The position numbers were made by a program, and so were the translations under genes. Under the pieces are notes generated by a model, which was given only the letters and a program-made list of their open reading frames with translations, ran no database searches and was not told the origin of the DNA. 64,000 nt of DNA. Source: Owenia fusiformis (Eukaryota; Annelida; Polychaeta; Sabellida; Oweniidae). Position 1 is the stretch's first letter. Every line of letters begins with the position of its first letter. Location: the NCBI GenBank assembly GCA_903813345.2, contig CAIIXF020000009.1:33640740-33704739 (forward strand). Direction: 5' to 3'. Shown here one piece after another: positions 5,401-38,927 of this stretch.

Positions 5401-7917
5401 TGTATCATATTGAATGGTGTTTTTCAGTTTTCATACTTTAACTTTTTAGTAGCTTTATAAATAATTTCAGGTGTACTTTGTTGTAAAAGCTTATGTTATT
5501 GTTAAGAGTAGTTATATGTGATAATTTTGTAAAAAGATTTCAGCAAAAACTCATAATCACTTTTTTATTGTCAGCCATTTTGGATTTTTCCGTCCTAAAA
5601 TCTTGTCTGTAAAGTCTTGTCTACGCGTTTTCAGGTGAACCGTTGGGTAGATCAATTTCAAATTTTCAGGGATGATTCTTAGTATGAGAATCTAGATCTG
5701 ATTAGTTTTTGGGCATTCTGGGTAAATGTCAAAGCAGCCATTTTGGATTTTCCGTCCTAAAATCTTGTCTGTAAAGTCTTGTCTACGCATTTTCAGGTGA
5801 ACAGTTTGGTAGATCAATTTCAAATTTTCAGGGATGATTCTCAGTATGAAAATCTAGATCTGATTATTTTTACGGCATTCTGGATAAATGTCAAGGCAGC
5901 CATTTTGGATTTTCCGTCTTAAAATCTTGCCCGTAAAGTCTTGTCTATGCGTTTTTAGGTGAACCGTTTGGTAGATCAATTTCAAATTTTCAGGGATGAT
6001 TCTTAGTATGAAAATCTAGAACTGATTAGTTTTTGAGCATTCTGGGTAAATGTCAAGGCAGCCATTTTGGATTTTCTGTCCTAAAATCTTGTCTGTAAAG
6101 TCTTGTCTACACATTTCCAGGTGAACTGTTTGGTAGATCAATTTCAAATTTTCAGGGATGATTCTTAGTATGAAAATCTAGAACAGATTAGTTTTTGGCA
6201 TTCTGGATAAATGTCAAGGTAGCCATTTTTGGATTTACTGTCCTCAAATCTTGTTTACATGTTTTCTGGTTAATTGTGTGACGGATCAATTTCAAATTTT
6301 CAGGGGTGGTTCTTAGTATGAAAATTTAGAACTGACTAATTTTGGTAAATTTTAAGGTGGCCATTTTGGATTCTCCGTCCTCAAATTGTGTCGGTAAAGT
6401 CTTGTCTACTCATTTTTAGGATAACCATTTGACAGGATCACCCATAGGTGGGGACATATTGTACACATTTGTGTTCTTGTTGCATATTGCTATTAAGACC
6501 AAACCTCTTACCTGATAGATCTATGTAGTAACTTGTGTACAATGCACCAAGAAGGTATCCTGCTGTGTAGCCAAAGAAACCAGAACTCCATATACATGCT
6601 GAAGGTAAAGATCCAGACACCTTTCAGCACAATGTATGTAATATTCATTATCAATGATAAAGAGATCTTGTGACAAAATCCTTAGGAGGTATCAGAGTTT
6701 GGGGTTTTATTGGCAGCAGGCAACGGGCGATTTTCACCAGTTGTTTTCACAAAATTGCCTGTTGTTTTTTAAGGTTTTTTCAACTTTTCCATGCTAAAAT
6801 TATGATTTCCATTAATTTTGCTTGTTGTTTTCATTTTTTTAACCTGTTGTGAGATATTCTAGCGAAACCCCTGAAAGTGTATCTTTTGTTAAAGAAACCC
6901 AAAGATCCATACACATTTTTACAGACCTGGTGACGTTATATTGCTCCCATTGGTAAAGTCTCAACGATTTAGAATATTTTATGTCATATTTTACATACTG
7001 GTATTAAATATGAATTTTAAGATTATTTAGAGAATTGACATAAAAAGGAATGCTTTTTTGTTTTTGAAGTGTTGCCCTTTGTGCATTCTCATCAAATTTC
7101 TACTTCCTACTAATATAACAGTGTTTTATATAAGTTTTATTGTTAACAGCTGTTTACATGTCTGTATTGATACCAATAGTTAAAAAATTATGAAATTGTG
7201 AATTCACTATGAATCTAAATAGAGACTACTGAAAATTCAGAATTTGTTAAAACTTCATGGTCGTGAACTTGATTTATGTATGTACGATTTTCACTTGTTA
7301 CCTATATATATGGAGGTGCCCTGTTGTCTTAGAAGTTTGTCAATGTATGAGATTGAAACATTTAGCATGGCAACTAGATTGAAACCTATCGCTATCTTTG
7401 CAAACACCAAAAAAAATCCTGTGATCCCCTGCTCTAGTTGATTTCCATTTAGACTGTTATCCTTGCATTCTTCAAGATGGTTGTTTGAGTTTGATGTTTT
7501 GTTTGAAATCAAGTTGCTGATCGTTACTTTGCTGGGAGAATCACAGAGATGTATCCTATTGTTATATCCGAACTCATGTGTGCTATTTCCAATGCTATCG
7601 TTAGGTAGTTCCTCAGCGCCAAATATGATATGTGGCAAGAAAAATAAGAAGCTTGACAAACAAAGTCCATAACCACAGGCTTGAATTAAGCGTGGTACTT
7701 TCTTGAATTTATGACCTATGGCCCCAAAAACTATGGTCCCAAAGATATATCCAATGTCATAGCAGCTATAGATAAATCCGAGAATGGTTGTTTTATAGTG
7801 GAATCGTTTTTCAAGTGTTGTAAAGACTGCTTGGCGATATGCTGTCTCTGTTCCAAATAGAAAAGTATATATGCATGTCATGATTGCAAAAATGTAAACC
7901 ATGTTACATCTCATCAT
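2025..7917 (-). CDS. Organic anion transporting polypeptide (SLCO/OATP), 5' part of gene
   Basis: Three exons on the minus strand (7917-7302, 6598-6512, 2432-2025) join in frame (616+87+408 nt, phases 1 and 1) into about 370 residues. The product is a multi-pass plasma-membrane carrier of the major facilitator type that moves amphipathic organic anions. The N-terminus holds the first membrane helices, with TLEKRFHYKTTILGFIYS and YDIGYIFG typical of OATP helices 1-2. A glycosylation-rich loop follows (NSTH, NKTS). ISYIDK..TSIYIG precedes a Gly-rich helix (YLLGALYTSYYID), and DPAWVGAWWLG matches the family signature. The last exon adds a very acidic, charged cytoplasmic loop and the KQLLQNPVLM segment. 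A family member has about 650-720 residues and 12 helices, so the 3' half lies outside the window to the left. The ATG at 7917 is preceded by an in-frame TAA (7924-7926), which supports this start. The subfamily is unknown. Confidence 0.88.
2459..3331 (+). mobile_element. Mariner/Tc1-like element with decayed transposase
   Basis: The ends are CAGGGTGACC...GGTCACCCTG within TA on both sides. Long terminal inverted repeats (over 80 bp) share CTCCATTTCTTCAATATTTT and the block around CAAGGACTTCATTCAATGTG. Inside, on the plus strand, are relics of an IS630/mariner transposase: KVGAPPHTSN after an in-frame TAG (from about 2841), then SLDLNAPDFYIWGYLKDDVY (about 2952-3013), equal to the SPDL.P.DF.LWG..K block with the third catalytic Asp. 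Stops and a large deletion make it nonautonomous. It lies in an SLCO intron. Confidence 0.8.
3592..4333. mobile_element. TIR element with ~11 bp target duplication
   Basis: The ends CGGGGGGTTCACTC and GAGTGAAACCCCCG are inverted with one mismatch. GGCAATAGGCC flanks both sides (3581-3591 and 4334-4344). A duplication of 9-11 bp suggests a Mutator-like element. An inner inverted pair, GTAGTGGTG near 3704 and its complement near 4306, hints at a second element nested inside. No coding capacity is seen. Confidence 0.7.
4001..4016. repeat. Alternating purine-pyrimidine GCATGCGCATGCGCAT
   Basis: A 16-base self-complementary alternating tract that could adopt a Z-DNA or cruciform form. It lies inside the 3592-4333 element. 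Confidence 0.5.
4565..4774. mobile_element. piggyBac-like MITE flanked by TTAA
   Basis: The 210-bp unit begins GGTAGTAGTATGGTATCG and ends CGATACTATACTACC, inverted apart from small differences, with TTAA at 4561-4564 and 4775-4778. TTAA duplication is the mark of piggyBac transposases. No ORF. Confidence 0.72.
5038..6456. mobile_element. Terminal-hairpin element with ~168 bp tandem units
   Basis: It begins TGTCCCCACC, folding on itself with GTGTGGGG, then a GTCCGTCTGTCTG run, then units of about 165-170 bp. Each unit has GCCATTTTGGAT, CTAAAATCTTGTCTGTAAAG and CAATTTCAAATTTTCAGGG. It ends GGTGGGGACA, complementary to the start. TA flanks both ends. It fills the SLCO intron up to 55 bases from exon 2. 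Confidence 0.72.
6512..6598 (-). CDS. SLCO/OATP coding exon 2
   Basis: An 87-nt exon between acceptor TTACCTTCAG|CATG and donor ATCAG|GTAAGAGG, phase 1 on both sides. Joined to its neighbours it reads YIACIWSSGFFGYTAGYLLG and so on to YIDLS, the Gly-rich helix plus the YxD turn of OATPs. Its donor is only 55 bases from the edge of the repeat element at 5038-6456. Confidence 0.85.
6599..7301. other. SLCO intron, nothing further seen
   Basis: The 703-base intron between SLCO exons 1 and 2. It is A+T-rich, with no repeat ends, RNA gene or second open frame that I can support. Confidence 0.6.
7302..7917 (-). CDS. SLCO/OATP coding exon 1 (N-terminal helices)
   Basis: Encodes about 205 residues from MMRCNMVYIF to TSIYIG. 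The donor is ATAG|GTAACAAG, with the exon ending at 7302 after one base of a split codon. It covers about four hydrophobic stretches and an extracellular loop with several N-x-S/T sites. The start codon is doubled (ATGATG); either Met could serve. Confidence 0.85.
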
Positions 7918-8402
7918 TGTGCCTTATGGGTCTTTAAATCACCTGAATTAATCCGGCAATAATGGCTTCTATATGGCTACAAAAATATTTAGCGAATGTC
8001 CTGGAACTCGAATTGTCTGTTGCAATATGGCTCAGGTACATTATATTTTATAGCTCTGCTTACGTGAATTTCAGGTGAATGTTTTATTTATTATCCAATC
8101 CTGTAAAGATACTGACAATGCCATGGTAATTTGTTGCAGATTTATGATATTTGTTATAATAAAAGGTACAACACATTGCATAGATTTTTATTGGGCTATA
8201 ATGATCTGCACATGAGTTTGCCCTCCAAGCAGTGATGTTGCGTTTTCGCTACTAAATGAAATAGATAAATTATACTACAGGTTTTTGTCTGAACTAGAAA
8301 ACTTCTGAACCTTGATATTTAAGTCAGAAATTTGAGACTTAATTTACATTTTACAATGCAATTAATGCATGCCTACATATGTAAATTTGGTTGTGTGGAT
8401 TT

Positions 8403-8879: not shown

Positions 8880-11800
8880 GTAAATAGAAAAACACAAACA
8901 CTATTCAAAGCCTAAGATAATAATAATTAAATAGGAATGATAGAAACCCTTAATTAAAGAATATTTTTTGAAAATGTCTAGTTTGTCTCATTAATGAAGA
9001 TTTCCATGGGGGTTTATGATTGACCACTTCGGCCTAAAATCACTTGAAAAGTGTTCAGAATAGTGAAAAACTGCATAATCCAGAAGGAAAGACCCCCCCC
9101 CCTGGCTACTGGCCTGGATTAATATTAGAAAATGACTCCTAATATGCTCAATTTTGAAGCCTTCTTTTGTATTGTGGGTTGAAACTTTTGAAACATTTAA
9201 ATGTGTTTAATAGATGTCGTGGTTGTGTTTGTATTGTTAAACAGATTGAAAAGCACTCTATTCATATGCTCAAAGTTTAAATGGTCAATACCATTGGCTT
9301 TCAAGCCTGTCACATCTTATCACAGATCAGGCAAACCCACAGAATGTGCAAGCCCCATATAGTGTAGCGAAGACACTGCAAGTTTGCCTTATTCTGTTTG
9401 CTGTTAGACATAAGTCGTCAGCTTTGACTAAAACACAAAAAGCAAATCTGACTCCATGCCTTATAAAAAGATTATCTGTTCTTGCCCCTAAAACTCCCCC
9501 AACTACAACATAAGGTTTTTTGCCATTTTCTCAAAATCTGATTGAATTATTAAATAGAAAGAAAAGCCATAATTATTTATGTTTTGATCCAGGTGGAAGG
9601 TTGAAATCTCGCATGAAAAGAGGATAGGAATTCCATTACCTAGGAAGGTAGGCCCAGTGTTGACAGTGTCAACTTTTAGACCATGTCCTATGATTCTTGG
9701 GGGATATCATTTTTATCTTTTAGTGGATATGCAAATATTCCACAAGCAAACACATTGTTTGTGTGAAGATGATATCATAAAAAATCATAGCACATTGTCT
9801 GTCATTTGACATTTTCTACTATTTAATATTATAAAACAATCAATCATGTTATTTTAATAATGATTGAAATCATGATCACACTCTCCTCATTGTCCATTTT
9901 ACATACTAAAAAACAAAAATGCACAAAGCTATACAAGAACAACATTGTAATCTGTATTTTAGGTAAATCTGTATTTTAGATAAATAGATTAATAGCGCAG
10001 TCAGATGTCCAGAAATGAGCCCTTCATAGTTCGACTTTTTCAGGAAAGCAACAAACTTGGCACAGTTGTAGAAACACATGATCTGAGTGGAAAATGATTT
10101 CGGGGCAAGTGATCCGGAGTGGTCTTCATGGATTTTTTAGTCTCCGACCCCAACCCCTATCAGGCGGGGAGGGGGTACATTATAAAAAATAAATAAAAAT
10201 GGTTGTGAAGTAAAAATTTTTAAATGACTCCATTTGGTGATTGCTCTGAGCCTTGAAATTGAGACAAACGGATTGTAGATGTGGTGTTTAGTGTGGAAAA
10301 TGCATTTTGACCCAATTATCTAGCGTGAATTCATCTTTTAAAGGGTCAAATATGGGACATCAAGTACTGTATTTCAAGAATGTGATGTCTGATCATCTTG
10401 GAAAAATTCATTCTAATAGGGGTATAAGTGTTCATCACAAATATAGAATATGGCTTGGGTAGCTCATGTATTTTTTGAGATAAAAATTATCGAAATTTGA
10501 ATTTTTAAGCACTTGCGGCCTAGGGATAACCTTATTCTACCTTAATAATTTTTAAGATATGCAATGTATGGGTCTCATATGAGCTCAAAATGGTGCATTG
10601 AGTCTTATTTTGTCATATTATTCCTAATTGGATTGAAAAATGATTGGAACTTTTCAAAAAAAAAAAAAAAATTTAGTATCGCTTCTGAAGGACCAGGGGT
10701 AACCATATTTTACCTTAATAACTTTCAAGGTTTGTAATATATGTATCCCAAATTAGCTCAAGATGGTGCATATAGTTCTGTTTAATCATTATACCTCCAA
10801 TAAGATGTAGAAAATGATTGGACATTTCTTAAAATTTGAAATTTTCATTTTAGCTTATGATGGCCTGGGGGGGGGGCTTATTTAACCTTGAACTTTTCTT
10901 AATTATGAGACGTATGCATCTCAAATGAGCTTAGAATTGTGTCATATACTCTTGTTTTGTCATAATATTCCTTAGGAGATGTAAAAAATAATGGAAATTT
11001 GAAAAATTACATTTTTAGCTTTTGACAGGTCAGGGGTGATTTTATCATATATTACCATAATATAGAAGCAAAGAATGGAGTGAGTTTAGCAGCCCCGTCC
11101 CCATGACCGATGCCATTGGCAGCTTGGGTCTTAAAGCATTTATGACCCAAGCTGCAATAAACCATGCTGACCTATTCTCAGCCAATCAGTGAGCTTGAAG
11201 GAACAAGTGGTAAATGCGTGCACAAGTGGTAAATGTGAGCTGCTTCTGTCAAGGATTCTGTCAGTGAATAATGACAGTCAATGATTGGGCACAAGAATGC
11301 CAAATGTTATCACAATAATTTTCAAGATAAAATGATCTCAAAATGGGGAAAATAGTCTGTTTTTCACTTTATTCCTACTGAGATAATGATTAACAACAAT
11401 TAGAAAATTCAGTGACACATTTAAATCTCAATCCATTTATTCCATTTTTCCATAGCAGTAGAATACAGATGTAACATCACATCCAATGATTGTATGAGAA
11501 ATGGGGAGGATTAAACTTTGGTCATTGGCAGGTAGATATTGATATGTTTTCTCCCTTACCATATGCTATCCAAATTGACTTTTTCAGTTTTTAACATCAC
11601 ATATATGCCAGGATAATCACATCAGAATTAAATGTAAGAAGTATTATTCTTTCTCTTGAAGGCCATGATTGAAGCAGTTTAACTGAAAATATTGAGAAAT
11701 ATCCTTGAATCTGCTTCTTCTTATAAGAGCAAGGGTGATGGCAGAACCTCACTGTTGGGCTAAAACATTCCATTGCCTCCTTAATTTATGTGGTCACTAT

Positions 11801-14800
11801 CTTCTTTCCATCCATTTCAAGGGTTTCAGGTTTTTAGACTATCCTTGTTCCAGTTCCACAAGTCTCTCTAGTGCTGTTTTAAAGGTGCAACAATTAGTGC
11901 AAAGGGGCCATTCAACGATCATGGACCAGTGTCAAAATATATTCAAGTTTTGATATTTCATCAAGACTAACATATATGTTTATTTTTTTCCAAAGAAACC
12001 CCCTGGATGAACATTATTTCAGCTGATTCCTCTTGAAATGTTTTGGATCTTAAAAACCTATAAGTGGGACTCCCTTTATAGAAGCTTTGAACTGAATTTA
12101 CACTTCTTAATGCTGAAATTGATAGTTTATCCATACATTTTAAGAAAATAGGTATGTCAAAGCCAAATATTGCCCTTATAGCTCAGAAAAAGTAAAAAAT
12201 TGAATCTTCTACAGACCTTGTTGCCCCTTTAAGCTAGTGTCCTTGTAAACATCCCAGCTGACATCAAGGCAATGAACTATTTGTAGACTTTTACGTGGGT
12301 AATATCATATTTGCATAATCACCAAATTTTCTTTATATTTCACTGTTAGCATGTTTAACTATACATGCCCTGTCTATTATTTTGGCATCTACTATGTAGC
12401 TTAGTCATTCAACTTTGATGTTAATGAGCATAGATACAAACAGCACAAAACTGGAACAGTGAGGAAAGTATATCCTACTAATTTTCTTCTGTGGAATTGG
12501 CAAGATTTCCTAAGATAGTTGGAACAAGAGGGAGCTGTTTTCCTTCCAGGCATCAAAACTGAAATCCTGGAGGAAGATGGCAAGAAGATAGTGACCTCAC
12601 AATGAGGTAATGCAATATCTTAGCCAGATAGTGAAGTATCTGCCATCACCATTCGCTCATATGAAGAAGCATGCCAAAGACTGCTTCTGTCATGACCTAA
12701 TAAGAATCATAGTCAATACAGTTGATTTTGATGTGGTTTAAACTGGCAGTAACTTGTGCTGAAAATGTCAATTTGGATTGCATATGGCCTATGGTGAGGG
12801 GAAATTCCTCCAGTATGTACGACCTGCCTTAGATATTTCAAGGCCACTTGGCAATGAACGAAGTTTAGCCCTTACCATTTTTCATACAATCGCCAGATGC
12901 ATTCTGCTACTACTCTTAGTCAACTGATTTGCAGGAATAGAAGGTGTACCCAGAGGTTACGCAAGTGTTCTTAAGCTTTAAATCTTTTTTGATACCCTAA
13001 AATTAGAAGACTAGAGTCCTTATTCATTCTGATGCATTCTTACCCACAGTTTCTATCACCACATGAATGTGGCTGGACTACTCCCACTGCTGATACTGAG
13101 GCCACAACATAAAATGTAGGTCATGGGGTAGATACCTGTGTCAAGAGAACAGATGCAAATGTTTGAAAGCAGATCTGATTTGCTCTGAGCTATGTAGCTG
13201 TAGGAGAGACTGTCAGAATCCATAAATTGTGACTCCTTTGATTAGGTTTTATAGATTTGGATTATATACTCAAATGATAATATACAGAATCTTAACAATG
13301 CTACTACTCGTGTGAGTATGAACTGGACTTATCAAACATTTTCATATCTTAGAAAATGTTCTATAAAACTAGATAGTATTGCCATTGGTACTAAAATGGG
13401 CTCTATCAGCGCAGAGCCCATGGTACTAAAAAGGAATAAATGGCTGTTGAGGTTCATTTTTTTATAATTGTTAATCATTATTGTATATCTCAGTAGCAAT
13501 AACATGACAAAACTAGACTATATTCACTATTTCGAGCTCATTTGAGTAGACAATATGATATATCTTTGTTTAAATTTTTAAGGTAAAATTGGGTCATTCC
13601 TGACCTATCATATTTTTATTATATCTTTTATTGACTCTTTAGATGTCATATCATGACATATTAGTCACTAAGGTAGAGCAGTTCTTCCCATTGTCGAGTT
13701 GAAGAACTGGTATCTTTATCCTGGCTAGAACCATAGACAATTCTAGCCAGCGCCAGCCTTTTATCGAGTTAGCAGCACTCTAGTAATCGCCGGTATAGGT
13801 CAGCAGTCATAGGTCAAAGACAAATCACAAGAAGTGCTGTGACCTGGGTTTGAACCCAAGACCTCTACTTTTCAGCTTTAAGCCAGACTTCCTGCTTTTC
13901 AGACCAATGCCTTAACCACTAGGCCAACCCGGCGACCACATAAACTACACTACCAATCTCAAACTGCATCAAACAGCATGGTTTCATAAAACAGTGCTGT
14001 AAAAACAGTACTGAACACAGCTGTTTTCTAAAACAGTACTGAGCTGTAAAAACAGTACTGTACTACGCTGTCCAAAACAGATGGTGTTAGAATAGCATTG
14101 TACATTGCTATATAGTGCAGTACTCTGACTGCACTGTTCAGCACTGTTTACAGCGCTGCAAGAAGATGTTGCGGATTGGGGGTGTAATATGAAAATGTCA
14201 TTTTCTTATAATTTCCAATCATTTTTTCACTCCTTGGGAATGATATGATAAAACAGGACTAAATATACCATCTTAAGCTCATTTGAGGTGACTATGTCTC
14301 ATATTTAGAAAATTATTAAGGTAAAATAAGGTTACCCCAGGGCCATCAAGAGCTTAAGTGAAAATTTTGATTTTTTAGATATATCCGATCATTTTCTACA
14401 TCTTATTGGAAGAAGTATGATAAAACAGAACTATATGCAACATCTTGAGCTAATTTGAGATGCATATATTACATATCTGGGAAATTATTAGGGTAAAATA
14501 TGGTTACCCCTGGCCCTTTAGAACCGAAAATGAAAATTTGATTTTTTTTTAATTTCCAATAATTTTCTTACATTTAATTAGGAATAATATGACAAAACAA
14601 TACTTAATGCAACATTTAGAATTCATATGAGACCCAAACATTGCGTATCTAAAAAATTATTAAGGTAAAATAAGGTCACCCCTAGGCTGCAAGGGCTTAA
14701 ATATCCATATTTCGATAATTTATTTCTCAAAAATTACATGAGCTACACAAGCCATATATCATATGAGTGATTAACACCTATATCTCTATTAGTATGAATT

Positions 14801-17800
14801 TTTTCAGGATGATCAGACATCACATTCTTGAAATACAGTACTTGATGTCCCATATTTGACCCTTTGAAAGATGAATTCACGCTAGATAATTGGGTTAAAA
14901 TGTATTTTCCTTCCTAAACACCACTTCTAAAATAGTTTTTTCTCAATTTCAAGGCTCAAAGCAATCACCAAATGAAGTCATTTAAAGAAATATACATTAC
15001 AACTATTTTTATTTATTTTATTATAATGTACCCCCTCCCCGCCTGATAGGGGTGGGGGTCAGAGGCTTACAATCCATGAAGACCACCCCGAATCACTTGC
15101 CCCGAAATCATTTTTCATTCAGATCATATGTTCATACAATTGTGCCAAGTTTGTTGCTTTCCTGAAAAAGTCGAACTACCAAAGGGACATCTGACTGCGC
15201 TATAAGAGTACATGTACATTTTGTATTATTTCAGATGAAGATGATGAATAATTACGCATCTATAGGAGTTGATGCTCTTGTTACTTTAAACTTTCACCGC
15301 CACAGAGAGAGCCGGCCATCTTTATTTGGAAGCCGTTTATTGAATAAGGTAAGAATACCATTCCTTTTCATATAGAAATAGATTTTTTTGTAAATATTGT
15401 AAGGTCTTGTTATTGCTCAGGAGGAAAAAGAGAAAAATACAGGGTGTCCCAAAAGTTCATGTACTCTGCCTGTCAAATGGTGTATATTGAAACTACAACC
15501 CTGTAATTTTCTCGATGCAATAATATAATAGATACCTTTAAATGTGATTAGTTGGGAGATCATCTCCTCATCCTTTCTTGGTATGAATATCTGATTTTTT
15601 GTGCATGTTGGGTATATTTTGAGACAAACAATTTTTATTATAGGTTATACTGCATATCATTCATCTTATGTCTCATTTAAAAGGATTTTACATTCAAGCA
15701 TTCCGCAATAGTAGAAGAGACTAGCAATAAAATAGAGCCTAGAGTAAAATACATTCTAAACAGAAAACACATGAATTTTACCATGTAGTATACCCATGAA
15801 ACAGAATCTCCATTTTTGTATTATTAGGAGGCCCCAACGGGGGGCCTCCTATAGATTTTATAGATATTATTTATTAGGAGGCCCCAACGGGGGGCCTCCT
15901 ATTAATTTTATAGATATTATTATTATTATTCTTTATTCTTCCTAAACCCTTTTCTCCTACTTCCAACTACCTTTCAACCATCTCCTACATGCACCTTCCA
16001 GGGACCTTGGCTGAACTTGGGGGAAAGAACTTTTTATCTAGGTCAAGGTCAAAGGTCAAAATCTAGGTCAAATCAAAGTTTTTTTTAAGTTTCTCAGATT
16101 TCGTCCTCATACTTTATTATTTCTTGCGATGAATTAAAATGTAACTAGATATAAGCATTCTCTACAAATTGCTCACTATATGTACGCGTTAATTTTTTAC
16201 CGTTTTTGAGATATTTGACGTCAAAAAACGGCAAAAATCGGTCATTTTTCAACTTGCTTCAAATGAACCAGAATTTTTTTTAAAAATCATCTACAAGATC
16301 TCAGGAACTCAAATATGTCCTTACTTTTGACCTCCGACCTTTGGTTGACCTTCGGTGACCTTCGAAAGGTAAAAAAAACTGATTTTTACAATTGATTTTC
16401 TGGATTCAAATTTAGGTATATTTGATCACAAAGGACCCACTGAGGTCTAAAAAAGTAAAATTTGCAAGGTCAAAGGTCAAGGTCATCAAACCAAATCACA
16501 AACTGTGTTTTCCAAGTTTCTAAGTTTTGGTGACTACAAATCAATATTTTTTCATGAAAGTCAGGATATATATTCCTCTATAGGTTTTACACATATTAGC
16601 AATTGACTATTTATTAAAATTGTGTACCAGTTTTGAGATATTAGAACTCAAAAACTGAAAAAAGGTCAAATTTCGAAACTTTGCAAGACTAAATTTCAAC
16701 TTGCTCTAAATTGACCAAACTTTTTTTTAAAAAGCATCTACAAGATCTCAGGAATCCAAATCTGACCTTACTTTTGACCTTTGACCTTTGGTTGACCTTC
16801 AGTGACCTTCGGAAGGTAAAAAAAAGTTGATTTTTCAAATTGACCAAACTTTTTTTTTAAAATCATCTACAAGTTGCCTGGTGTTAATATATGACCCTAG
16901 ATTTGAGATTTGACCTTTGGTTGACCTTGAAATTGCCAAAAACGCCTACAGGGCCTCCTTAAGATTGCTTGCAATCTTAAACCTCTAGTTATTATTCTTT
17001 ATTATTATTTATTCTTCTCTGCACTTTTTCTCCTACTTCTAACTAGATTTCAACTATCTACTATATGAACCTACTAGGGACCTAGGTTGAACTTACCGGG
17101 AAAGGAATTTTTATCTAGGTCAAGGTCAAAGGTCAAAATCTAGGTCAAATCAAAGTTTTTTCTAAGTTTCTCAGATTTCGTCCTCATACTTCATTATTTC
17201 TTGCGATGAATTAAAATGTAACTAGATATAAGCATTCCCTACAAATTACTCACTATATGTTCGCGTTAATTTTTTACCGTTTTTGAGATAATTGACGTCA
17301 AAAAACGGTAAAAATTTGTCATTTTTCAATTTGCTTCAAATTGACCAAATTTTTTTTTTAAAATCATCTACAAGTTCTCAGGAACTCAAATCTGACCTTA
17401 GTTTTGACCTTTGACCTTCAGTGACCTTCGAAAGGTCAAAAAAGTTGATTTTTCAAATTGATTTTCTGGATTCAAATTTAGGTACATTTGATCACAAAAG
17501 ACCCACTGAGGTCTAAAAAAGTAAAATTTGCAAGGTCAAAGGTCAAGGTCATCAAACTAAATCACAAACTGTGTTTTCTAAGTTTCTAAGTTTTGGTGAC
17601 TACAAATCAATATTTTTTCATGAAAGTCAGGATATATATTCCTCTATAGGTTCTACACATATTAGCAATTGACTATTTATTAAAATTGTGTACCAGTTTT
17701 GAGATATTAGAACTCAAAAACTGAAAAAAGGTCAAATTTCGAAACTTTTCAAGACTAAATTTCAACTTGCTTCAAATTGACCAAATTTTTTTTTTAAAAC

Positions 17801-20800
17801 TCATCTACAAGTTCTCAGGATTCCAAATCTGACCTTACTTTTGACCTTTGACCTTTGGTTGACCTTCAGTGACCTCCGAAAGGTCAAAAAAGTTGATTTT
17901 TCAAATTGATTTTCTGGATTCAAATTTAGGTACATTTGATCACAAAAGACCCACTGAGGTCTAAAAAAGTAAAATTTGCAAGGTCAAAGGTCAAGGTCAT
18001 CAAACTAAATCACAAACTGTGTTTTCTAAGTTTCTAAGTTTTGGTGACTACAAATCAATATTTTTTCATGAAAGTCAGGATATATATTCCTCTATAGGTT
18101 CTACACATATTAGCAATTGACTATTTATTAAAATTGTGTACCAGTTTTGAGATATTAGAACTCAAAAACTGAAAAAAGGTCAAATTTCGAAACTTTTCAA
18201 GACTAAATTTCAACTTGCTTCAAATTGACCAAATTTTTTTTAAAACTCATCTACAAGTTCTCAGGATTCCAAATCTGACCTTACTTTTGACCTTTGACCT
18301 TTGGTTGACCTTCAGTGACCTCCGAAAGGTCAAAAAAGTTGATTTTTCAACTCGATTTCTGGATTCAAATTTAGGTATATTTATTCACAAAAGACCCACT
18401 GAGGTCTAAAAAAGTAAAATTTGCAAGGTCAAAGGTCAAGGTCATCAAACGAAATCACAAACTGTGTTTTCTAAGTTTCTCAAAATTGGAGACTACAAAT
18501 CAATTTTTTTTACTGAAAGTCAGAATATATATTCCTCTAAAGGTTCTACACATATTAGCACTTGACTATTTATTAAAATTTTGCTCCAGTTTTGAGATAT
18601 TAGAACTCAAAAACTGAAAAAAAGGTCAAATTTCGAAATTTTTGAAGGTCAAATTTCAACTTGCTCCAAATTGACCAAATCTTATTTTTAAAAGCATCTA
18701 CAAGATCTCAGGAACTCAAATCTGACCTTAGTTTTGACCTATGAGCTTTAGTTGACCTTCAGTGACCTTCGAAAGGTCAAAAAAGTTGATTTTTCAAATT
18801 GATTTTCTGGATTCAAATTTAGGTTTATTCAATCAGAAAAGATATACTGAGGTCTAAAAAAGTAAAATTTTCAAAGTCAAAGGTCAAGGTCATCAGACAA
18901 GATCACAAACTGTGTTTTCTAAGTTTCTCAAAGTTTGTGACTACAAATCAATATTTTTGAATTAAAGTCAGGATATATATTCCTCTAAAGCTTTTACACA
19001 TAATAACAATTGATTATCTATTAAAATTCTGCACCAGTTTTGAGATATTGGACCTCAAAAACTGAAAAAGGTCTAATGTTGAAATTTTTCAAGGTCAAAT
19101 TTCACATTGCTTCAAATTGACCAAACTTTTTTTTTTAAAATCATCTACAAGATGCCTGGAGTTCATATATGACCTTGTTTTTAAGATTTGACCTTTGGCT
19201 GACCTTTAAATGTTCAAAAAAGCCTACGGGGCCTCCGTAAGATTGCTTGCAATCTTTATACGATTGCTTGCAATCTTATACATCTAGTGATACATTATTT
19301 TATTATGATGCATTATATCGTAGTATTGTATATCAGGTATTTATTTAAGTATTTCATCTCTCAATCATATAATGTATTTATAGTGTACATATACCATGAT
19401 TGCTGCATCAATCACAAAAAAAGAAAAATGCATTATTAAAGGTCATAGCAAAATGAAGTGTTTACATTTTTGGTCCACATTTAGCAATTTTTGCTCTCAG
19501 TATACTTTTCTGGATTGTTTTTTTTTAATATAGCATTAGGCATTCTTTGTTTTGATTATGCACAAATCTCCGTATTTCACTGATTAATCTAATATGAGGC
19601 ATGATAAGTAAAAGCATTGTTAGATTATAATGATTCCTTTTTTTGTTGTGTTTACATTACATTATCCATGTTTGTTTTTTAACAACTATAGTAACATCTT
19701 CAAATTGTCACGTTGCTGGTACGGTAGTATTTGAAACTATGTATATAAAGTCACAATGTACATTTTCATTTTACTCAAAAATAGCTAGGAAAATATATAC
19801 AGGGTGGTAAATGGGACACTTTGATTTCAAAAATAGATATTGATTTTTTCATGAAAATGTGACATATTATATATTGTTTATGTAAATAAAGTTGACAAAA
19901 ACTTGGTTTTTGCAAGTTTTGAGAAACCTGCTTTGAAACGAATATGACATCATTTATATTATGGATGCTGGTTGACAGACATTATTATAAATTTGAACTT
20001 ATGATATACCAAATTGAAGATAAGTAAATTCCCTGTACACTGGTATATAAAATGACATGTTTTCATCAAGAAAATCAATATCTATTTTTGAAATCCGAGT
20101 GTCCCATTTTTTGGACCACCCTGTATACATGTATATCCGTATAGGGTTGTTTACTTTTAGACATTCTCTTTGAGTTGCATATTAGTGTAAGACATTCAAT
20201 GAAAAACAAATACGGTACATGTAGAATGTACCCATGGTTTTTATCAACTCCACCAGGCTTCTTTGCAAAGCATCAACAAAATGGCCTTTATATTTGAATT
20301 GAATGTTATATGAGATTTATCTCACAAATTGACTGTATTTTGTGATCACAGTTAAAATCATTCCAATTTAGAGACCATTTTGCATGAAGATCCATACAAT
20401 TCTCATTTCCAGAAGCCTCATCAGGTTGCCCTGGATGCCACTTTGTAAACTCCATTGGTTTTGTCTCAAAGCATGGTCCTCCACTCCATTGCCATTCTCC
20501 TGTCAAATCATTACCACCTATTTGTGAGAAAATCAAAATACATGTACAAGCAAATGCCTTCAAAGTTAATCAGAGAAATGCAGGTGAAATGATTTTTCTT
20601 AGATATCAAAGGATTAGGATATCCATGTGTAGATTTGATTCTGATCAAGACTGCATGTGATTTGTAAGGCACATGCATAACTATTTCTGCATGAATATAT
20701 CTTCTTGTGAAAGGATTGGTATCGATATGGAGATCTGAATTCAACAATGTTTTTCTCTTAAACCAATCATTGAAAACATTCTGTAAAAGAACATGGTATT

Positions 20801-23800
20801 TTATGTAATGTTGACTGATTGACAATAAATTAATGCAAAAAATATTTAGAAATCTTTTATATAACTGTTTTTGTTAACACTTTTTGTTTTTTTAGTGCAA
20901 TTGTTTTTGCTCCTTTCTACCAATTCTTGAGAATGAACTAAAATGTCTTTCCGAACCTTGTTGGAACAAAATAGCATATACAACATGTTTTTAGACCTCT
21001 CAATATTATAGTTATACAAAGGAATTTTTGATTGATTTTAAAAAAGTATTCAAAAAATTAAAACAAAATCCCCCCAAAATAGATAAAAATCAAGAAAAAC
21101 CTTTTATTTCATTAACAAGATACTTTTTTTAAATCAACCAAAATTTCCTTTGTACAATTACAATATTGAGAGACCTAAACATGTTGTGTTTATGTCGTTT
21201 TGTTCCAATGAGGTTCGGAAAGATGTTTCATTTCACTCTAGAAACATGATACCAAGAACAAAACAAGTGTTTGATGTGTTTTTTAAACAATATAGATGTA
21301 AGTATGTATATCTATTTCAAATTATATTGTTACCATTCAAAAGATGGCCATTAAATTGACAATTTGTAAGATTTTCAGAAATATTTGGTGACCGGTTTAA
21401 GAGAAAAGTGTGTTCAAAAAGTTCGCCATATCGATACCCATTCTTTGCTAAACATCTTTACATAAACATAAACAATAAAGATGATATAGTACACAAAAAT
21501 ATTCTCAGCTTTTTAAAAGAGAGTTTAAAATTTTTAATTGATGATATGCTTCTGAGATTATATTTACCTGTCCAAAAATACAGTCCACTTTTGCCATCAG
21601 AATGAAGCTTTCCAACAATGTAGGTATGTTCGGCCTCTGTCTCTATGGCAACAAGATGTGCATTATGTGTTGAACAATAGTAACTGGCGTCAGACCACGT
21701 TGCTGCTGCATTTGGCATGGTTACAAACAAATAACAAGAGTCCAGGTGCCTTGTGAAGTATGTTGGACAACTGCTTTGACATTGAACTGACTTTTTCAAT
21801 GTTTCGATGTCAGATTTTATGCTTTTGATGTCTTTACAACAGTTCTTTGCACTCATACTCAGATGTAGCAGAGTTAGCATTACTGCCATTTGGATTAACA
21901 TGGATTCAATCTTTCTTTGCATCTGCAATAATAAATTTGTTTAGACATATCTCTGCTGATTCCATCATTTGGCTTAGAAATGGCTACACTGTCAGTATGT
22001 AAGCATAAGGGCCAAAGGACCTAAAAGTATTATAAAACATATTAAACAAAAAGCCCATGAGAGAGTAGCAGTATTATAGTGATGGCATGTTCAATATGCA
22101 CAGGTTTTACTGTATTTACAGACAAATTTTTTTACTCCAAAAATGTTTCAGCGACTCACTTTAGACTGATTTGCATCAAATATTGGGACCACAAAAATAT
22201 CATCAGGACTCCAATTTTAAAAATGTCCCAGGTACTCCAACAAATATTTTTATGTCTCTTTTATCTTACCTGAGTTATTCAGTGGCAAATCAGTATCTAA
22301 TTGCTATTTTTTAGAGTTACCTTTAAAGCATCAACTTCCAATCGTTTGCTTTAGTCAGTAGTACCAAGAACAGCACGATAATACATGTAGGATGTCGCAA
22401 AACATGAGATGATAAAATGTTAAGAATGGGTGTGTCAAAACATTAGCCACTATTATATTTTGGATATGTTACCAGATTTTCTTTATATGAAAGTTTAACT
22501 GCATACCAGTATGATTTTCATGTTCAAGCTCACTTTGAATTCTTTTAATTATTGCATTGACACGATACCATTTTAACTGATTTAAATCAGTTAATGCATT
22601 TTGGAAATATATGTCAAAGAATATGGTGTACTAGGTGGTTTCAAAATGGCTTCATTTCCACTGCTGACTATTATATGTGACTGTTAAAAAGCCATCTTCA
22701 AATGATGACAATATTTTGTGTACCTCTGTAGAGAGTATCTGTTCTAGGGTCAAAGAGCCCAATGAACATTTTGAAAAGAATTCTAAGAATTGTTTACATC
22801 TAAAACTTAGTAGACCGAATTATAACTCACAATTCATCTTTTATGATTTTTATACACAAAATAAGTTACATCCAAAGAAAACTGCAGTACAATTGTGAGG
22901 TGTTCAGTCATGCTCCAACAGACACATTAATAATCTGCAAAAGGCTAATGAGCCCATTTAAAGCAGATTTATATAAATTATCCTATATGAGGTTCAAGAT
23001 ATTGGGATTATCCCAAAACCAATATAACATATCTGCCTGAGAGCCATGGCTCCAAAGGGTGGATATATTATATTGGCCAAGGGATGATCCCAATATCCTG
23101 AACCAACTATAGGATGATCTGTTTATCCCATACCAATCTTGCTCATCTTCTTCACATAGTTCAATTGGCCCGAGTTCAGAAAAATGCATCAACAGTCAAA
23201 TGGCAATTATGACTTAGCGGGCAGATATAATATATCTGCCCACTCAGGCCGAGATGTAAAGCTATATCTGCCCACATTATGAAAATATAAATTTTTACAA
23301 ACCTGCTTTATGTACCTGGAACACATCCAAGTATGGGATAAATAGTTTAACACTGATAGAATTTGAATAGAATAGAATTTAAACCTTAGCATTTAAAAAT
23401 TAGATTTATGGTTTGGTTTCAAGTTATTATCCCATCGAACGAAGTTCGGAGGGATATAGGGAACGCCTCCGTCCCTCCGTCCGTCCGTCCGTACGTACGT
23501 CCGTCCGTCAGTCCGTACGTACGTACGTCCGTCTGTCCGTCCGTCCGGGCAATAACTCAAATACCGTTGGCCCGATTTTGTTCATATTTTGTACACATAT
23601 ACCCTATGGGGGTAGAAGTTCTGCTCGAAAGCCGATTTTCAAAATGGCCGCTCATTTCAAAATGGCGGCCATTTTAGTGCCGATTTTACAGTAATTTAGG
23701 TGCAATAAGTAAAACTGTAATAGCAATATGTTTTAAATGTAAAAAATTATAAAGGACATTAATAATGCTACAAATGTAGATATTAAAGAAGCACATGGCA

Positions 23801-26800
23801 GCCATCTTAAAAAATGGCGACCTTTACTCGTCATTTTACGATTTTTGCTGTAACTCAAAAAATAGTGGAGCGATTTTGTTCATATTTGGTATGTGAATAC
23901 TATAAGCATTGCACACTGTCTAAAGACACTTTTCGTAGAAGGCGGCCATTTTGAAAAATGGCCGCCATTTTAACGTATTTTACTATAACTCGAAAAGTCG
24001 TGGAGCGATTTTGTTCATATTTGGTATGTGACTACTATAAGCATGGCACACTGTCCTATGACACTTTTGGTAGAAGGCGGCCATTTTGAAAAAAAATTTG
24101 AAAAATGGCCGCCATTTTAATGTATTTTACTATAACTCGAAACTCGAAAGTCGTGGAGCGATTTTGTTCATATTTGGTATGTGACTACTATGAGCATGGC
24201 ACACTGTCCTATGACACTTTTGGTAGAAGGCGGCCATTTTGAAAAGAATTTTGAAAAATGGCTGCCTTTTTAACATATTTTACTATAACTCGAAAAGTAG
24301 TAGAGCGATTTTGTTCATATTTGATATGTGAATACTTTAAGCATGGCATATTGTCTAATAAAACTTTGGGGAGTAGTCGGCCATTTTGAAAAATGGCCAC
24401 CATTTTTATGTGTGTTATTTTACAAGTATGTGTGCGATTTTTCAAAAAATTTAGAGGTGGCTACTTAAAAGCATATTATTTCTTCTGATGACAACTTGGC
24501 TAGTGAGCAACCATTTTAAAAATGGTGGCCTTTCTGGTGTGTTGTTTTATGATATTTGCTATTCATCTGTAAAAATGCCAGCCATTTCTGTTCGATGGGA
24601 TTCGCTACGCTTTGGCGTTGCCGTTGTTCTGGTTTTAAAATTGAAAGGAAGCTCCCTTGCAGGCCCATGAAGTCCCTTTATGTACACTGAGATAACTGTC
24701 AGGCTACCTATGTAGCACCGTTGTTATGAAGAACCATTGTAGTGTAGAACCATTATAATGTAAAGCCATTGTCTCCAAGATTCACCATCTTTGATTACCA
24801 AGGTATGAAGTCAAACTGGTAAGCGAGTATGAGATTCACACCCCTTCACCATCATGCAATATTTGGTAGTATGCACATCCATACAGTTTTGAAATCATCC
24901 TGAATTAACTTACCATTATACAGTACAATGCTGTACATAGTCTTGCATTAAGACCCTCCTTATCTACCTCTCTTTTTATTGGGTTTTGGATATTTGAGAG
25001 GGAAGGGGCACAAGGGCTTTGAGAGACTATACCATACACAACTTGTACCATATGCCACTTATGCCATCTATTTATAGCAGTTTGCATTACGAAGGGAAAA
25101 GAGTTCAAGAAATCGGTGAAACACATATTCAATTATTAAATATATTCAAATGAATGGCTAGATTACAATCTAATGAAATGACAGATAAATGATTCTCATT
25201 TTCCTGTCTGGTGTGACTCAAAGCATATAAATTACTAAATCTTGAATTTATGATTTGGAATAGATTCCTATTATTCTTCACTTACAATTTGAGATTAATA
25301 AAACATAAAACAAATTGGGTTTTGGGAGATAGGGTGAGTGACTCATGGGGCAAAGAACAAGGTATTTTATTTGACCAATGCGCAAAGCGTTTTTTAGTAA
25401 AGATATATAATGAAATTAAAAATAAGATACATGATTGATGCTTTTAGAACTGATCGTTTTATAATTTGAATGTTATACTATGTAATTTTAATATGTAATA
25501 TGCCGCACTGGGACCTAAGGACCCATGTGCCACTGCTGTAAAAGTGTGTGCAAATAAATAAATAAAAATAAAAATAAAGAAAACAATCAGCCTTTTTATT
25601 CAAAAATAATAAGAAATGTGCAGCTTCTGTATCATTTGCAGTGAGTATGATTCTTGATTGTATGGGCACGTATTCAATAAACATTTTACAGTCACAAAAT
25701 CTTAATTGTAAAATCACTAGTTTAACCATTTTTGTTGTTATCGTGTCAATGTTTTAATTCTTATTCATAAAATCGCATTCTGACCTCTGTGAACTTAGTA
25801 TGGCATCTTCTGCAAGGTTGTTCAGTAGAGATTTTTGTTTTCTATTGTCTCCCCTCCTAGGTATTGTGATTTATTTACTTCTATCTATTGTTATAATTAA
25901 ATTATAGTCTTGCTCTTTGGTTGAGAAATGCTCAATTATTTGCACCTGGATGACAAACAATGGTGTCCCTTTAATTAGAAATACCTGAGGAAAGATTCGG
26001 GAGATTCCAACAAAATGGTACATTAATTTTTTAAATTAATATTTTTATAAATTGGGTGAGGGAACGGTGTTGAGCATATGCTATAGAATCGGTTTTATTG
26101 TCTAAAGAGACTTTAATACTTGGCACGATTCTGTCATTTGGAGTATGATATATTAGTGATTATAGTCTAAATATAGCAATTATAAGACAAGGAATATTCC
26201 TCATCTTGACTATTAAAATATATTACTTTTCATGCCCAGCCCCTAACACTTCATGCTTCAGAAGAGCCATACTGTTTTGACTATCACAATAATATCTTTT
26301 AAAATACATGTACATTTCTTATGTGATGTAGAAGGCAGATATTTAGATTTATTAATCTTCTTCTGATATCAATAGAAAATACTATAGAAATAAACTAAGA
26401 TATTGCACTTGTAATTGAAGTTGGTTTATTTTAATACCCTTATAATATATACTGTATGAGAATGTATATGTATCGTCACATCGTGATTCCACATCCCTAG
26501 ATCTTTTACAAGAGTCTATTGTTGACACTTGTTTTACTAAGTAAAGTTGTAATAATACTAGAATTGCAGAATATAGTCAGCTTTTATCTTAGGGGCAAAT
26601 ACAGTACATACATTGTATTGATAAAATGCTCCTATTGTTCCAGAAATTCACTTTAAACCGCAAAATTAATTCCTTTGCATTTACCATGAGTAATGATTGA
26701 ATATTCGAACATGTTTGGAAATGATTTGTTGAAGTTTTATTTATTTTGCCTTGTTACCCCGAGGGCATGCCAAATTAAATTCTCATGATCAAATTAGATT

Positions 26801-29800: not shown

Positions 29801-32800
29801 AACGTTACTAAATTGTTGCCATGTTTTTGAGAATCTGAGTCCACTATGAAGAAAGTAATGTGATATGGTGTAAAATGTTACTACAGTCATGCATACATGC
29901 ATCTGGTGAATAAACACTAAACCTAAAGGTACAGCAAACACTAGGGGAGTGTTGAGAGTATAGCTTTTCTTATAAATTGTCTCACAAAAGTATTATATTT
30001 TCTGATGATGCTTTTGATGCAACTGCAAAAGAAATAAGTCTTCAATGCCGACTTCTTGCAAAATATTATGAGCTACTATAAATTTTCCCAAACGATTTTC
30101 AGTTTCAATGTGTTGTTTAAAAGTGTTGTCTGTTGTCCAGATGATAACCTATGAATGTGCTATGAATCACATATTGAATTTGTTATCTACTCTTCAATAA
30201 CCTTCCAAGATTGATACATGTACGTTGAAAGATTGAAAAGTATTCTCAGTTATTTGACAATGGGCAAGTATCACATCCCCGGGACTACATCTCGATCTAT
30301 CAAGGTATTATATATGACTGAAGGAATACTCTTTATGCAAGTACCAAAGTGTCAGTATGTCAATTGAAATTTTTATAAATACTTTTGACATAAAAGTACC
30401 AGTGTATATTCTATTGCATATATTCACATTTCCGTTAGTCTTTCATCATATTTCTGGACCCCCTGCCCATCCCATCTACTTGTTCTTCAGAGGTAGAATG
30501 TGTAGGGGCGGCCAGGAACTTTTAGCAAGATATTATCTCTATTCACTTGGCCGGGGAGTATAAAAATTGCAAATCAGAAGAATTAAGGTCTATCATCATT
30601 TCTATGAAGCAGTATACTGTTTCTATTGATGGGTCCATTTCATTTTGACACATTGTAGTAAAAGTGTATTTTAGTCACAGCTCTCTGTCAAACAGTTGTC
30701 AACATTTCAAATGATAAAGCAATATTTGAGAACTTTATTAAACTTACAAAAAATTGAGTTGATGAAAGTGTCAAAATTCTCAGCTTTATTGTAGGACTTT
30801 GGTTTAAACCTTTATTCCATAGAATTATATTAAATAGAGATATTTTGAGATTTTGTCAGGTGTAATTTTAGAAACAAGAAATTAGTGAAATGTTGTATTA
30901 ATAAGACTCCTTTGAAGATAATTATTTTAAGTAAGTCTTTATTGAATCTTTAAATTTTCAATAATGTCTTCATGTATCTGTCAGAAAGTGATCTCTAAGA
31001 AGACACCTGGGCTAAGTATATAATTATAAGAAAGCGTTGCACTTTAAAGTAGAAACAATCATTTTTTTTTATTTCATTAAAACATAATAACATTTGTACA
31101 TATTCGTGGTCGTGACACCTACATAGGTATATAATTGACCACATCATTTATTAAGGAATGAAGTGAACGACTCTAAAAATTGATATGAATTGTGTCACTT
31201 GTGCAAAAATAATTTTGTACCTTGAGATAGTAAAATTTTTAGAAATAACACTAATGTGGATGTCCATATTCATTATTTTAGCGTGACTGCTATAAAGAAC
31301 CAATTACCACCTAGATCACCACATTCTCGTTAAAATAAATGATCACGGTTCTATAAGGGATTTTATGAGATATTAGATTTGGTGGGTAAAGGACATATTG
31401 GTTTAAAAATAATAAATCCTGATTGCACTTATACCTCTGATATTAGCTTCAATAGAAGAAACTCTTATATAGTTATGGACATCTCTAAATGGATGTACCT
31501 TTTGAACAAAAACTTTACCTGTCCAGAAGTGGTTTATTGAGTATTATATGTAAACATAGGCATATGACCATTCTCAATTAGTATGATATCTGAAGTATTC
31601 TGGCATTTGAAAGTGAATGGAGTTTGACTGTTCCTCACAGGTGCACCCAGAAAATATAACATATCTGTCAAGATCGGGATATTATTAAGTTTTGATTTAT
31701 TCGTGTAATTGTTACTCAGCAAATAAGTGTTTACTATAAACCTGATTTAATTTGAGTTTCATATAGTGGGATGTCGTGATGTTGCAAATAGTCTCATCAA
31801 ATGAGAAAGCACTTGATATAATAGGGCCAATGTAAGAATACAGTTGTACAGTAAAACTGATGTATGTGAACAACTTTCTGAAGTTAACACCTGAGCAATA
31901 GTTTCAGTTCAGTTCTTCATTTATTTTGGAAATACCATGGATTAAGCATGTTAACCATTTTTTATGTCAAAATCCACCATATCGAGATAACTTGGACACT
32001 GTGGATAATAGAAAGTAAAATTAAAACATGATATGATTAATTGCTATGATATGTAATCTTATGACCATTGGTCAACATGGTTATAATGTTTTTATAATTT
32101 CATTGAATGATATTCAGTGACCCAAGCTATTCATCAAATTGTAACCACTTTCAAACCACAAATGGCTATTCATGTGCGATAATACCTCTTTTAAGTGCCA
32201 CATGATCCAACCCATTTTATTAAAGAAGTAAAGTAGAATCCATATAAGGTACATGAACACCTCTCTACCTATACATGTACTTATTATGTCACCACCAGAA
32301 GTGGTGAAATATTAGGAGAGTCACTTTTTGTGTTCAGCGGTCTGTGTCTGTAACACATGGCAGGTTGTGACATTTTGCATGCTAATGCCTCATTTTATTT
32401 GTGATATTTTCTGTGCTTGCAGTTCTGGTACTTCACCTATGGAACAAAGGATGTCCTGGAGAGAGAATGTAAGAATCTCCACACCAAACTCAAGGTAATA
32501 CCTGCTATCCACACCCTAGTACTATGATATATACCACTTGTCATATTTATGTAATGGTGTGGTTGTCATCACAATGCGATTGTGTTCCCATGGAGACAAT
32601 TGTTTAGTTAGACCATCAATTAAAATTAGCAAAACAAAAATACAGCTATATAAACTATCACTGCATTTCAACACTAGAGAAATGTACACTTTGTAAATAT
32701 CTTTAAAGAAGTGACATCTCTAATTGGTAGTTGTCCATAAAGGCCGGCATCGGGATCCAATATGACTTTTGCCATGGAAACTGATTAGTTCTTATTTCCT

Positions 32801-37608: not shown

Positions 37609-37800
37609 ACTCTTGGATAACAGTTTGTTTTGCATCAAATCTCTGGTCACAAGGGATTGGGCAGTTTTGCAATCTCACAGGAAAATGTTGAAAAAGGCAG
37701 ATCATCAAGTCAATGTAATGTTTTGATTTTGAACTATACGTATGCTCCTATAATGTGTAAATATCCACATAAAAATGTGAACAGTATTTACTGTTTTTTT

Positions 37801-38927
37801 ATCCCATCGAACGAAGTTCGGAGGGATATAGGGAACGCCTCCATCCGTCTGTCCGTCCGTACTCCGTACGTACATCTGTACGTCCGTCCGTCCGTCCGTC
37901 CGTCCGGGCAATAACTCAAATACCGTTGGCCCGATTTTATTCATATTTTGTACACATATATCCTATGGGGGTAGAAGTTCTGCTCGAAAGCCGATTTTCA
38001 AAATGGCCGCTCATTTAAAAATGGCGGCCATTTTAGTGCCGATTTTACAGTAATTTAGGTGCAATATGTAAAACTGTAATAGCAATATGTTTTAAATGTA
38101 AAAAAAATTATATAGGACATTAATAAAGCTAGAAATGTAGATATTAAAAAAGCACATGGCAGCCATCTTGAAAAATGGCGGCCTTTACTCGTTAATTTAC
38201 GATTTTTGCTGTAACTTGAAAAGTAGTGGAGCGATTTTGTTCATATTTGGTATGTGAATACTATAAGCATGGCACACTGTCTAATGACACTTTTGGTAGA
38301 AGGCGGCCATTTTGAAAAATGGCGGATATTTTGAAAAATGGCGGCCATTTTAACTTATTTTACTAAAACTCGAAAAGTAGTGAAGCGATTTTGTTCATAT
38401 TTGGTATGTGAATACATATAAGCATGGCACACTGTCTAATGACACTTTTGGTAGAGGGCGGTCATTTTTTAAAATGGCCGCCATTTTAACGTATTTAACT
38501 ATAACTCGAAAAGTAGTGGAGCGATTTTGTTCATATTCGGTATGTGAATACTGTAAGCATGGCACACTGTCTAATGACACTTTTGGTAGAAGGTGGCCAT
38601 TTTGAAAAATGGCCGCCATTTTAACGTATTTTACTATAACTCGAAAAGTAGTAGAGCGATTTTGTTCATATTTGGTATGTGAATATTATAAGCATGGCAC
38701 ACTGTCTAATGACACTTTTGGTAGAAGGCGGCCATTTTTCAAAATGGCCACCATTTTAACGTATTTTACTATAACTCGAAAAGTAGTAGAGCGATTTTGT
38801 TCATATTTGGTATGTGAATATTATAAGCATGGCACACTGTCTAATGACACTTTTGGTAGAAGGTGCCCCTTTTGAAAAATGTTCGATGTGATTCGCTACG
38901 CTTTGGCGTTGCCGTTGTTCTGGTTTT
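37801..38927 (+). mobile_element. Terminal-hairpin minisatellite element, copy 2
   Basis: Same start, CCGT run, ~130-155 bp units (five or more) and tail as copy 1; here the 3' inner repeat reads GTTCGATGTGAT. It starts 192 bases after the DGKE stop codon and probably forms part of its 3'UTR or terminator region. Long frames on both strands here come from the repeats. Confidence 0.75.
38122..38127 (+). promoter_or_regulatory. Candidate DGKE polyadenylation signal inside a repeat
   Basis: This is the first AATAAA I see after the DGKE stop codon. It lies in repeat copy 37801-38927. The sister copy at 23429-24636 has AATAATG at the matching place, so the signal is specific to this copy. Use as the real 3' end is unproven. 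Confidence 0.25.

Follow-up and report, generated by a model that had tools for sequence, protein, structure and literature searches.

How does a transposon come to hold the remains of one gene twice, in mirror image, and to multiply without a working copy of it? This question is raised by an element at 9993-15202 of a 64,000-nucleotide stretch of the genome of the annelid Owenia fusiformis (assembly GCA_903813345.2, contig CAIIXF020000009.1, positions 33,640,740 to 33,704,739 of the forward strand), hereafter the window. The element is a gene-dead mobile palindrome that has recently multiplied. With a probability of roughly 0.7, we believe that it is a non-autonomous foldback transposon of an AcademX-like kind, born by a 3'-3' inverted duplication and moved in trans by intact relatives. 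An earlier note, made from the letters of the window alone, had proposed a foldback-type DNA transposon with the relic of an open reading frame (ORF) inside. This assignment is supported by the tips, the arms and the 3-bp target-site duplications (TSDs) of the copies; the inverted duplication of the core had gone unrecognised.

Ends and arms of the element

The mobile unit has 18-bp tips that are complementary to each other without a single mismatch, both reading TAGCGCAGTCAGATGTCC inward, and TAA stands at both flanks. These ends were found just where the earlier note had placed them, and so were the inverted arms of about 1 kb, which pair at 83.6% across 1029 columns (9993-11015 versus 15202-14192). 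The features of the ends and arms are as follows:

9990-9992, no strand: left TSD, TAA, read from the sequence
9993-10010, plus strand: left 18-bp tip, TAGCGCAGTCAGATGTCC, with its exact complement at the right end
9993-11015, plus strand: left inverted arm, with ~172-bp units in its inner part and no tandem units over the outer ~520 bp
11330-11408, plus strand: arm-unit remnant in the left half, pairing with 13543-13456 (76%, E 1e-11)
13453-13610, plus strand: arm-unit remnant in the right half (repeat search and inverted pairing)
14189-14683, plus strand: tandem 172-bp units of the right arm, 2.9 copies with 74% matches (Tandem Repeats Finder)
14192-15202, minus strand: right inverted arm, pairing with the left arm
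15185-15202, minus strand: right 18-bp tip, exact complement of the left tip
15203-15205, no strand: right TSD, TAA, read from the sequence

The arms had been said to consist of tandem units of ~175 bp. This holds for their inner half, where the units measure about 172 bp, and not for the outer ~520 bp, in which the repeat search saw no repeat family. For the left arm, Tandem Repeats Finder listed no array; a separate repeat search gave a repeat spacing of 173/347 bp there. When one 172-bp unit was used as a genome query, the best matches (the best 40 of 279 candidates were scored, which leaves room for dispersed arrays) appeared, judged by position, to lie inside copies of the element; use of the unit as a satellite is therefore disfavoured.

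The mirrored relic

The core carries the ORF relic twice, on opposite strands, each copy with its C-terminal side toward the nearer tip. Its parts are listed here against the 889-amino acid (aa) protein of a relative elsewhere in the genome, locus L026:

11446-11833, minus strand: left relic copy, nuclease-like part (tblastn E 7e-8 and 2e-8, and DNA pairing)
11834-12554, no strand: palindrome centre without detected pairing, the right relic beginning inside it at 12450
12450-13213, plus strand: right relic copy, L026 aa 550-886 in pieces, with frameshifts and stops
13139-13213, plus strand: CXC-like cysteine cluster of the relic (56% to L026, E 1.6e-6)

The motifs of an ORF family that had been pointed out in the core were indeed recovered at 12450-13213 of the plus strand, where they are distributed over frames with stops. 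On the other strand, a translated search follows the left relic from 11812 down to 11446, corresponding to L026 aa 593-718. The cysteine cluster gave a Pfam TCR match at E 0.0083, under the Pfam cut-off. In a DNA self-comparison of the element, the inverted pairs run collinearly from the tips to the core; the inner ones join 11559-11678 to 12787-12680 (69%) and 11712-11833 to 12671-12555 (76%, E 3e-18). The inner core alone reaches a pairing score of 112, against a maximum of 29 over 200 shuffles in two-base blocks. Judging by this pattern, the element is best described as a decayed palindrome made of two 3' ends, and since the arms lead into mirrored gene fragments, the route of its formation would be legible from the sequence.

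Copies in the genome

A genome-wide tip search, which had been recommended for the collection of copies, found the exact 18-mer 65 times in forward and 63 times in reverse orientation in the 498-Mb assembly; the reversed control had no occurrence in either orientation. Sixteen other copies were retrieved, 14 of them with both tips; the remaining two (L020 and L021) were left out of the TSD count, the right tip being absent from the retrieved stretch. All 14 complete copies are flanked by TSDs of exactly 3 bp (TAA, AAA, TTA, ATA, TAA, ATA, AAA, TAT, CAT, AAT, CAT, CAC, TTA and TTA), none by a 4-bp duplication, and the window element likewise has 3 bp. With a 568-bp left-end query, the best 40 of 285 candidates, the window's own included, were all at least 96% identical. 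Together with the window element there are 15 complete copies, whose pairwise divergence is 0.4-2.6% (median 1.9%, 105 pairs). Because the copies differ so little, the family has spread recently. Both relic copies are present in 13 of the 15; the left one is missing in L022 and L024.

A second subfamily

A second subfamily is represented by L029, with tips TAGCGGGGTCAGATGTCC / TAGCGGGATCAGATGTCC and the TSD TTA, and by L027. Their arms are 78-82% and their relic 69-70% identical to those of the window element. The palindrome of L029 also extends through the relic (1654-1872 versus 2287-2065, 79%, E 8e-51). L027, whose right end was not traced to a tip, and L028, whose right tip lies beyond the retrieved stretch, stand outside the TSD count.

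Did each of the two subfamilies acquire its palindrome on its own, starting from related autonomous elements whose 3' ends carried tandem repeats? This scenario, compatible with an origin by 3'-3' duplication, appears to us quite possible, if somewhat short of an even chance. In the arm tree the subfamilies separate, each with its own left and right arms (support 0.999 in FastTree and 100 in IQ-TREE), 23 informative arm sites favour grouping within the subfamily and 5 favour left with left, and the break points at the palindrome centre differ between the two. However, the same tree would result if the two arms of a single ancient palindrome had undergone early conversion, palindrome centres are prone to deletion, and the informative sites in the relic halves (1, 2 and 1) give no resolution. 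Either there were two separate origins, or the arms of a single old palindrome have been homogenised.

Long-ORF relatives

The protein family of the relic had been taken for an uncharacterised one, a view that finds no support, as long intact relatives (889, 1587 and 1569 aa) occur in the same genome. Long ORFs were found at L026 (889 aa), L025 (828 and 394 aa), L030 (1587 aa) and L031 (1569 aa). Those of L030 (3987-8750) and L031 (3682-8391) are intact single ORFs on the minus strand, and we regard them as candidates for working Academ-like transposases.

For two of the three long ORFs of 889, 1587 and 1569 aa, namely those of L026 and L031, tips of the form TAG...CTA with a 3-bp TSD were recognised. 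The L031 element measures 6036 bp, has the TSD ATA and the tips TAGACTAGAATCA, and contains the intact 1569-aa ORF. L026, taken together with the upstream L049, forms an 8826-bp element with the TSD TAA, an intact 889-aa ORF and inverted arms of ~320 bp. Of the first 11 bases of its 3' tip, TAGCCCAGTCAATAATGG, 10 agree with the window tip, and of those of its 5' tip, TAGTCAAATCACTAATGG, 7 agree (both counted by hand); the 3' boundary was set by L032, a 99% identical truncated copy that diverges directly past the tip. A further element, L034 (4514 bp, TSD TAT), has a broken ORF and tips TAGCG(A/G)GATAAATAGTG that run on into inverted arms. When TAG tips flanked by a 3-bp TSD were searched for automatically, two of eight loci gave a result, L031 and L034, where the expectations from shuffled sequence were 0.1 and 0.3 (0-0.5 per locus overall). 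The distant ORF relatives, about 30% identical, occur with other arms (L026, L031), as would be expected within a transposon family.

The TAGCCCAGTCAATAATGG tip is shared by L026, L032, L050 and L051. It has 122 genome matches at up to 2 mismatches, with 5 for the control, and 32 of the matches listed are exact; no facing pair within 10 kb was seen among those listed. We read these loci as a probable large family whose 5' and 3' tips are unlike. In viral contigs, no relative of this kind could be confirmed for the protein of L026.

Predicted function of the protein

The proteins of L025, L026, L030 and L031 align over the motifs (L/I)DG, D(I/V)V(W/F)D, EEAD, D(T/S)D and G(C/S)D, behind which comes a CXC-like tail, and L030 and L031 show conserved D/E residues, candidates for those of a DDD/E transposase. 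Presumably, the metal ligands in FEN/XPG nucleases follow one another in the same order as these acidic motifs. When aligned by hhalign with pieces of the host XPG, EXO1 and GEN1 proteins, the family falls in register with a score of 26.4; over 50 column shuffles the score did not exceed 22.3. Together with the order of the motifs, this weak profile match hints at a nuclease of the FEN/XPG type that has a CXC tail. Pfam gave only sub-threshold DUF6589, TCR and chance matches on the intact proteins. The top match in a search of solved structures was HflX (E 0.015 and 0.0029), which we judged a chance match, the aligned part being the GTPase region; L026 gave two further matches at E 0.8, and L031 gave no match in that search.

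Classification

The AcademX lineage of the Academ DNA transposons reportedly goes back to Kojima (2020), and its nuclease is, as we assume, XPG-like. Both the 3-bp TSDs and the putative FEN/XPG-like nuclease with a CXC tail point to this lineage. PMC10045372 gives TSDs of 3 or 4 bp for AcademX and 9 or 10 bp for AcademH, and ties the difference to the encoded nuclease or helicase. TSDs of 3 bp were found at the 14 complete copies, the window element, L031 (ATA), L034 (TAT) and L026 (TAA). We therefore read the window element as a likely non-autonomous AcademX derivative mobilised in trans, an assignment made by the published description. The group had been suggested to be little-described, which no longer seems apt, since its features fit what is published on AcademX (PMC10045372). 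Alike are the varying 3-bp TSD, the terminal inverted repeats (TIRs) and the nuclease-like domain in the ORF of the long relatives; in contrast to AcademX, the window element codes for nothing, has tandem-repeat arms of ~1 kb and possesses two 3' ends.

That the element belongs not to Academ but to a DDE superfamily with 3-bp TSDs that has yet to be named seems to us unlikely. In its favour, the intact proteins have no Pfam XPG domain, and the top Pfam match of L026, DUF6589, lies under the cut-off; against it, a 3-bp TSD together with a nuclease-like ORF agrees with the account of AcademX in PMC10045372.

Better-known superfamilies were considered as well. Harbinger elements have 3-bp TSDs limited to TWA, and TWA stands at only 6 of the 15 complete copies, the rest being AAA, ATA, TAT, CAT, AAT and CAC; Harbinger is thus excluded. 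The TSDs of P and Galileo elements are 7-8 bp long, and the 3-bp TSDs exclude these too. A Mutator-type foldback is excluded in the same way, with 3 bp in 15 of 15 copies versus 8-10 bp.

By its structure the element is a foldback: its long inverted arms contain tandem repeats, and it has no intact gene. Tetris and Galileo are known examples of foldbacks whose arms are built of such repeats. Tetris of Drosophila virilis is also non-autonomous, with long inverted arms and internal tandem repeats of ~220 bp; unlike the window element, it makes TSDs of 8-10 bp, has a middle domain without apparent coding capacity and was suggested to belong to Mutator, according to PMC4079207. Galileo, of the P superfamily, is described as having long and internally repetitive TIRs; it differs from our element, with its 3-bp TSDs, in the P-type transposase. 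KolobokP (PMC9587614) is an animal DNA transposon that likewise combines a transposase (DDD/E) with a nuclease and has unusual long terminal repeats, yet these repeats are direct, not inverted, and the nuclease is of the His-Me finger type. Among the titles and abstract beginnings listed in our literature search, none linked Academ to foldback or palindromic forms, which does not prove that such work is absent. What appears to be new is the different lineage, and the mirrored gene fragments suggest one way in which such forms can arise.

Origin of the palindrome

The starting material would have been an autonomous element's 3' end, made up of the C-terminal part of the transposase/nuclease ORF, a flank of ~172-bp units and the 3' tip. 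Fused to a second, inverted copy, this end would yield a palindrome that has a 3' end on either side and lacks a 5' end. As a route, one may imagine a free single-stranded 3' end that folds back and primes its own copy, or a template switch in gap repair; foldback inversions through single-stranded hairpins are reported for yeast (PMC7467729). The enzyme of intact relatives would then act in trans, recognising the TAG...CTA tips, making cuts with a 3-bp stagger and moving the element by cut-and-paste, and in this manner the palindrome, itself without a working gene, may have multiplied recently as one unit. It is tempting to go further and to suppose that foldbacks are born in one step by AcademX 3'-3' duplication, with the dead gene mirrored inside, that elements with two 3' ends and without a 5' end are mobile, and that such births took place two or more times in this genome. 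We hold this wider proposal only tentatively, with clearly less confidence than the origin of the element itself. If true, the transposase would need only one kind of end.

Several observations weigh against an origin by 3'-3' duplication from an AcademX-like element with mobilisation in trans. The left half of the window element has no CXC part, which leaves the palindrome incomplete on that side. Among the matches listed in a protein search of the genome with the relic (best 150 of 238 candidates scored), every one with at least 48% identity over at least 80 residues has stops, and the stop-free ones are only fragments of up to 59 residues or distant relatives at ~30% identity. The relic, broken as it is, would thus travel as a passenger of the window family, and among the matches listed there was no intact partner with window-type (TAGCGCAG-type) tips. 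The automatic tip search found none at L025, L026, L028, L030, L032 and L033, one end of L026 and of L028 lying outside the searched stretch. The 5' end of L026 was assigned by hand afterwards, at a TAA-TAG site 32 bp beyond the arm, and the N-terminal part of its gene is split upstream. In the search for an empty site, the joined flanks of the window insertion matched only the window flanks themselves. As to the nuclease, the hhalign probability of the XPG/EXO1/GEN1 match is 15%, the PDB profile search returned no FEN/XPG protein, and none of the intact proteins showed an XPG domain in Pfam.

Could the element instead be an ordinary transposon with long TIRs, whose ancestor had tandem-repeat arms of ~1 kb at both ends and in which deletion or rearrangement left inverted ORF pieces by chance? 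The L026 element does have inverted arms of ~320 bp around a single long ORF that was retained. However, both inverted relic pieces derive from one stretch of coding sequence, within L026 aa 593-714, and are collinear with the arms in either half, as is also the case in the second subfamily; we consider this explanation improbable, slightly more so than that of an unnamed superfamily.

Chance nesting of the ORF relic in unrelated arms can practically be dismissed, as arms and relic occur together in all 14 complete retrieved copies and in the second subfamily, so that their pairing, as previously proposed, is real. The patterns that had been named as signs of nesting, the relic without these arms or the arms with a known Harbinger or P-type transposase, did not appear in these 14 copies, which were not scanned for other transposases, the fragments and the inserts of L020 and L021 having been examined only in part.

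Neighbourhood of the element

Between the relic and the right arm lies an insertion:

13613-13938, plus strand: later insertion of an unrelated high-copy repeat, 326 bp, absent from this place in other copies and not part of the element proper

This repeat had 813 first-look candidates in the genome, the best 40 of which, including the window's own, were 98-100% identical. It carries the motif GGTTTGAACCC, in which we presume a resemblance to a tRNA-like B-box, and is probably a short interspersed nuclear element (SINE). Rfam gave no match over 9801-15400, and ARAGORN found no tRNA gene in the whole window.

Exons of an organic anion transporter (OATP) lie on the minus strand at 1873-2514 (Pfam E 2.7e-12) and 7291-7923 (E 2.7e-22), and the transposon is situated some 2 kb past the second. 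A C-type lectin exon was found at 21458-21940, minus strand (Pfam Lectin_C, E 4.7e-6), and a Pfam scan of 30001-31500 gave no match. Less than 1 kb from the transposon, at 15911-19206, a 448-bp tandem array (4.2 units) overlaps a direct repeat of 0.93 kb (91.6%). Finally, 23424-24406 and 37796-38757 are two copies of a repeat, 87% identical, in which a TCCG microsatellite is followed by tandem units of 135-153 bp rich in AAAATGGCCGCC; this repeat may be another element with tandem-repeat arms.

Meaning for the transposon family

Under our interpretation, the superfamilies that yield foldback forms would be joined by an AcademX-like lineage. For the recognition of transposon ends by the transposase, it makes testable whether two 3' ends suffice.

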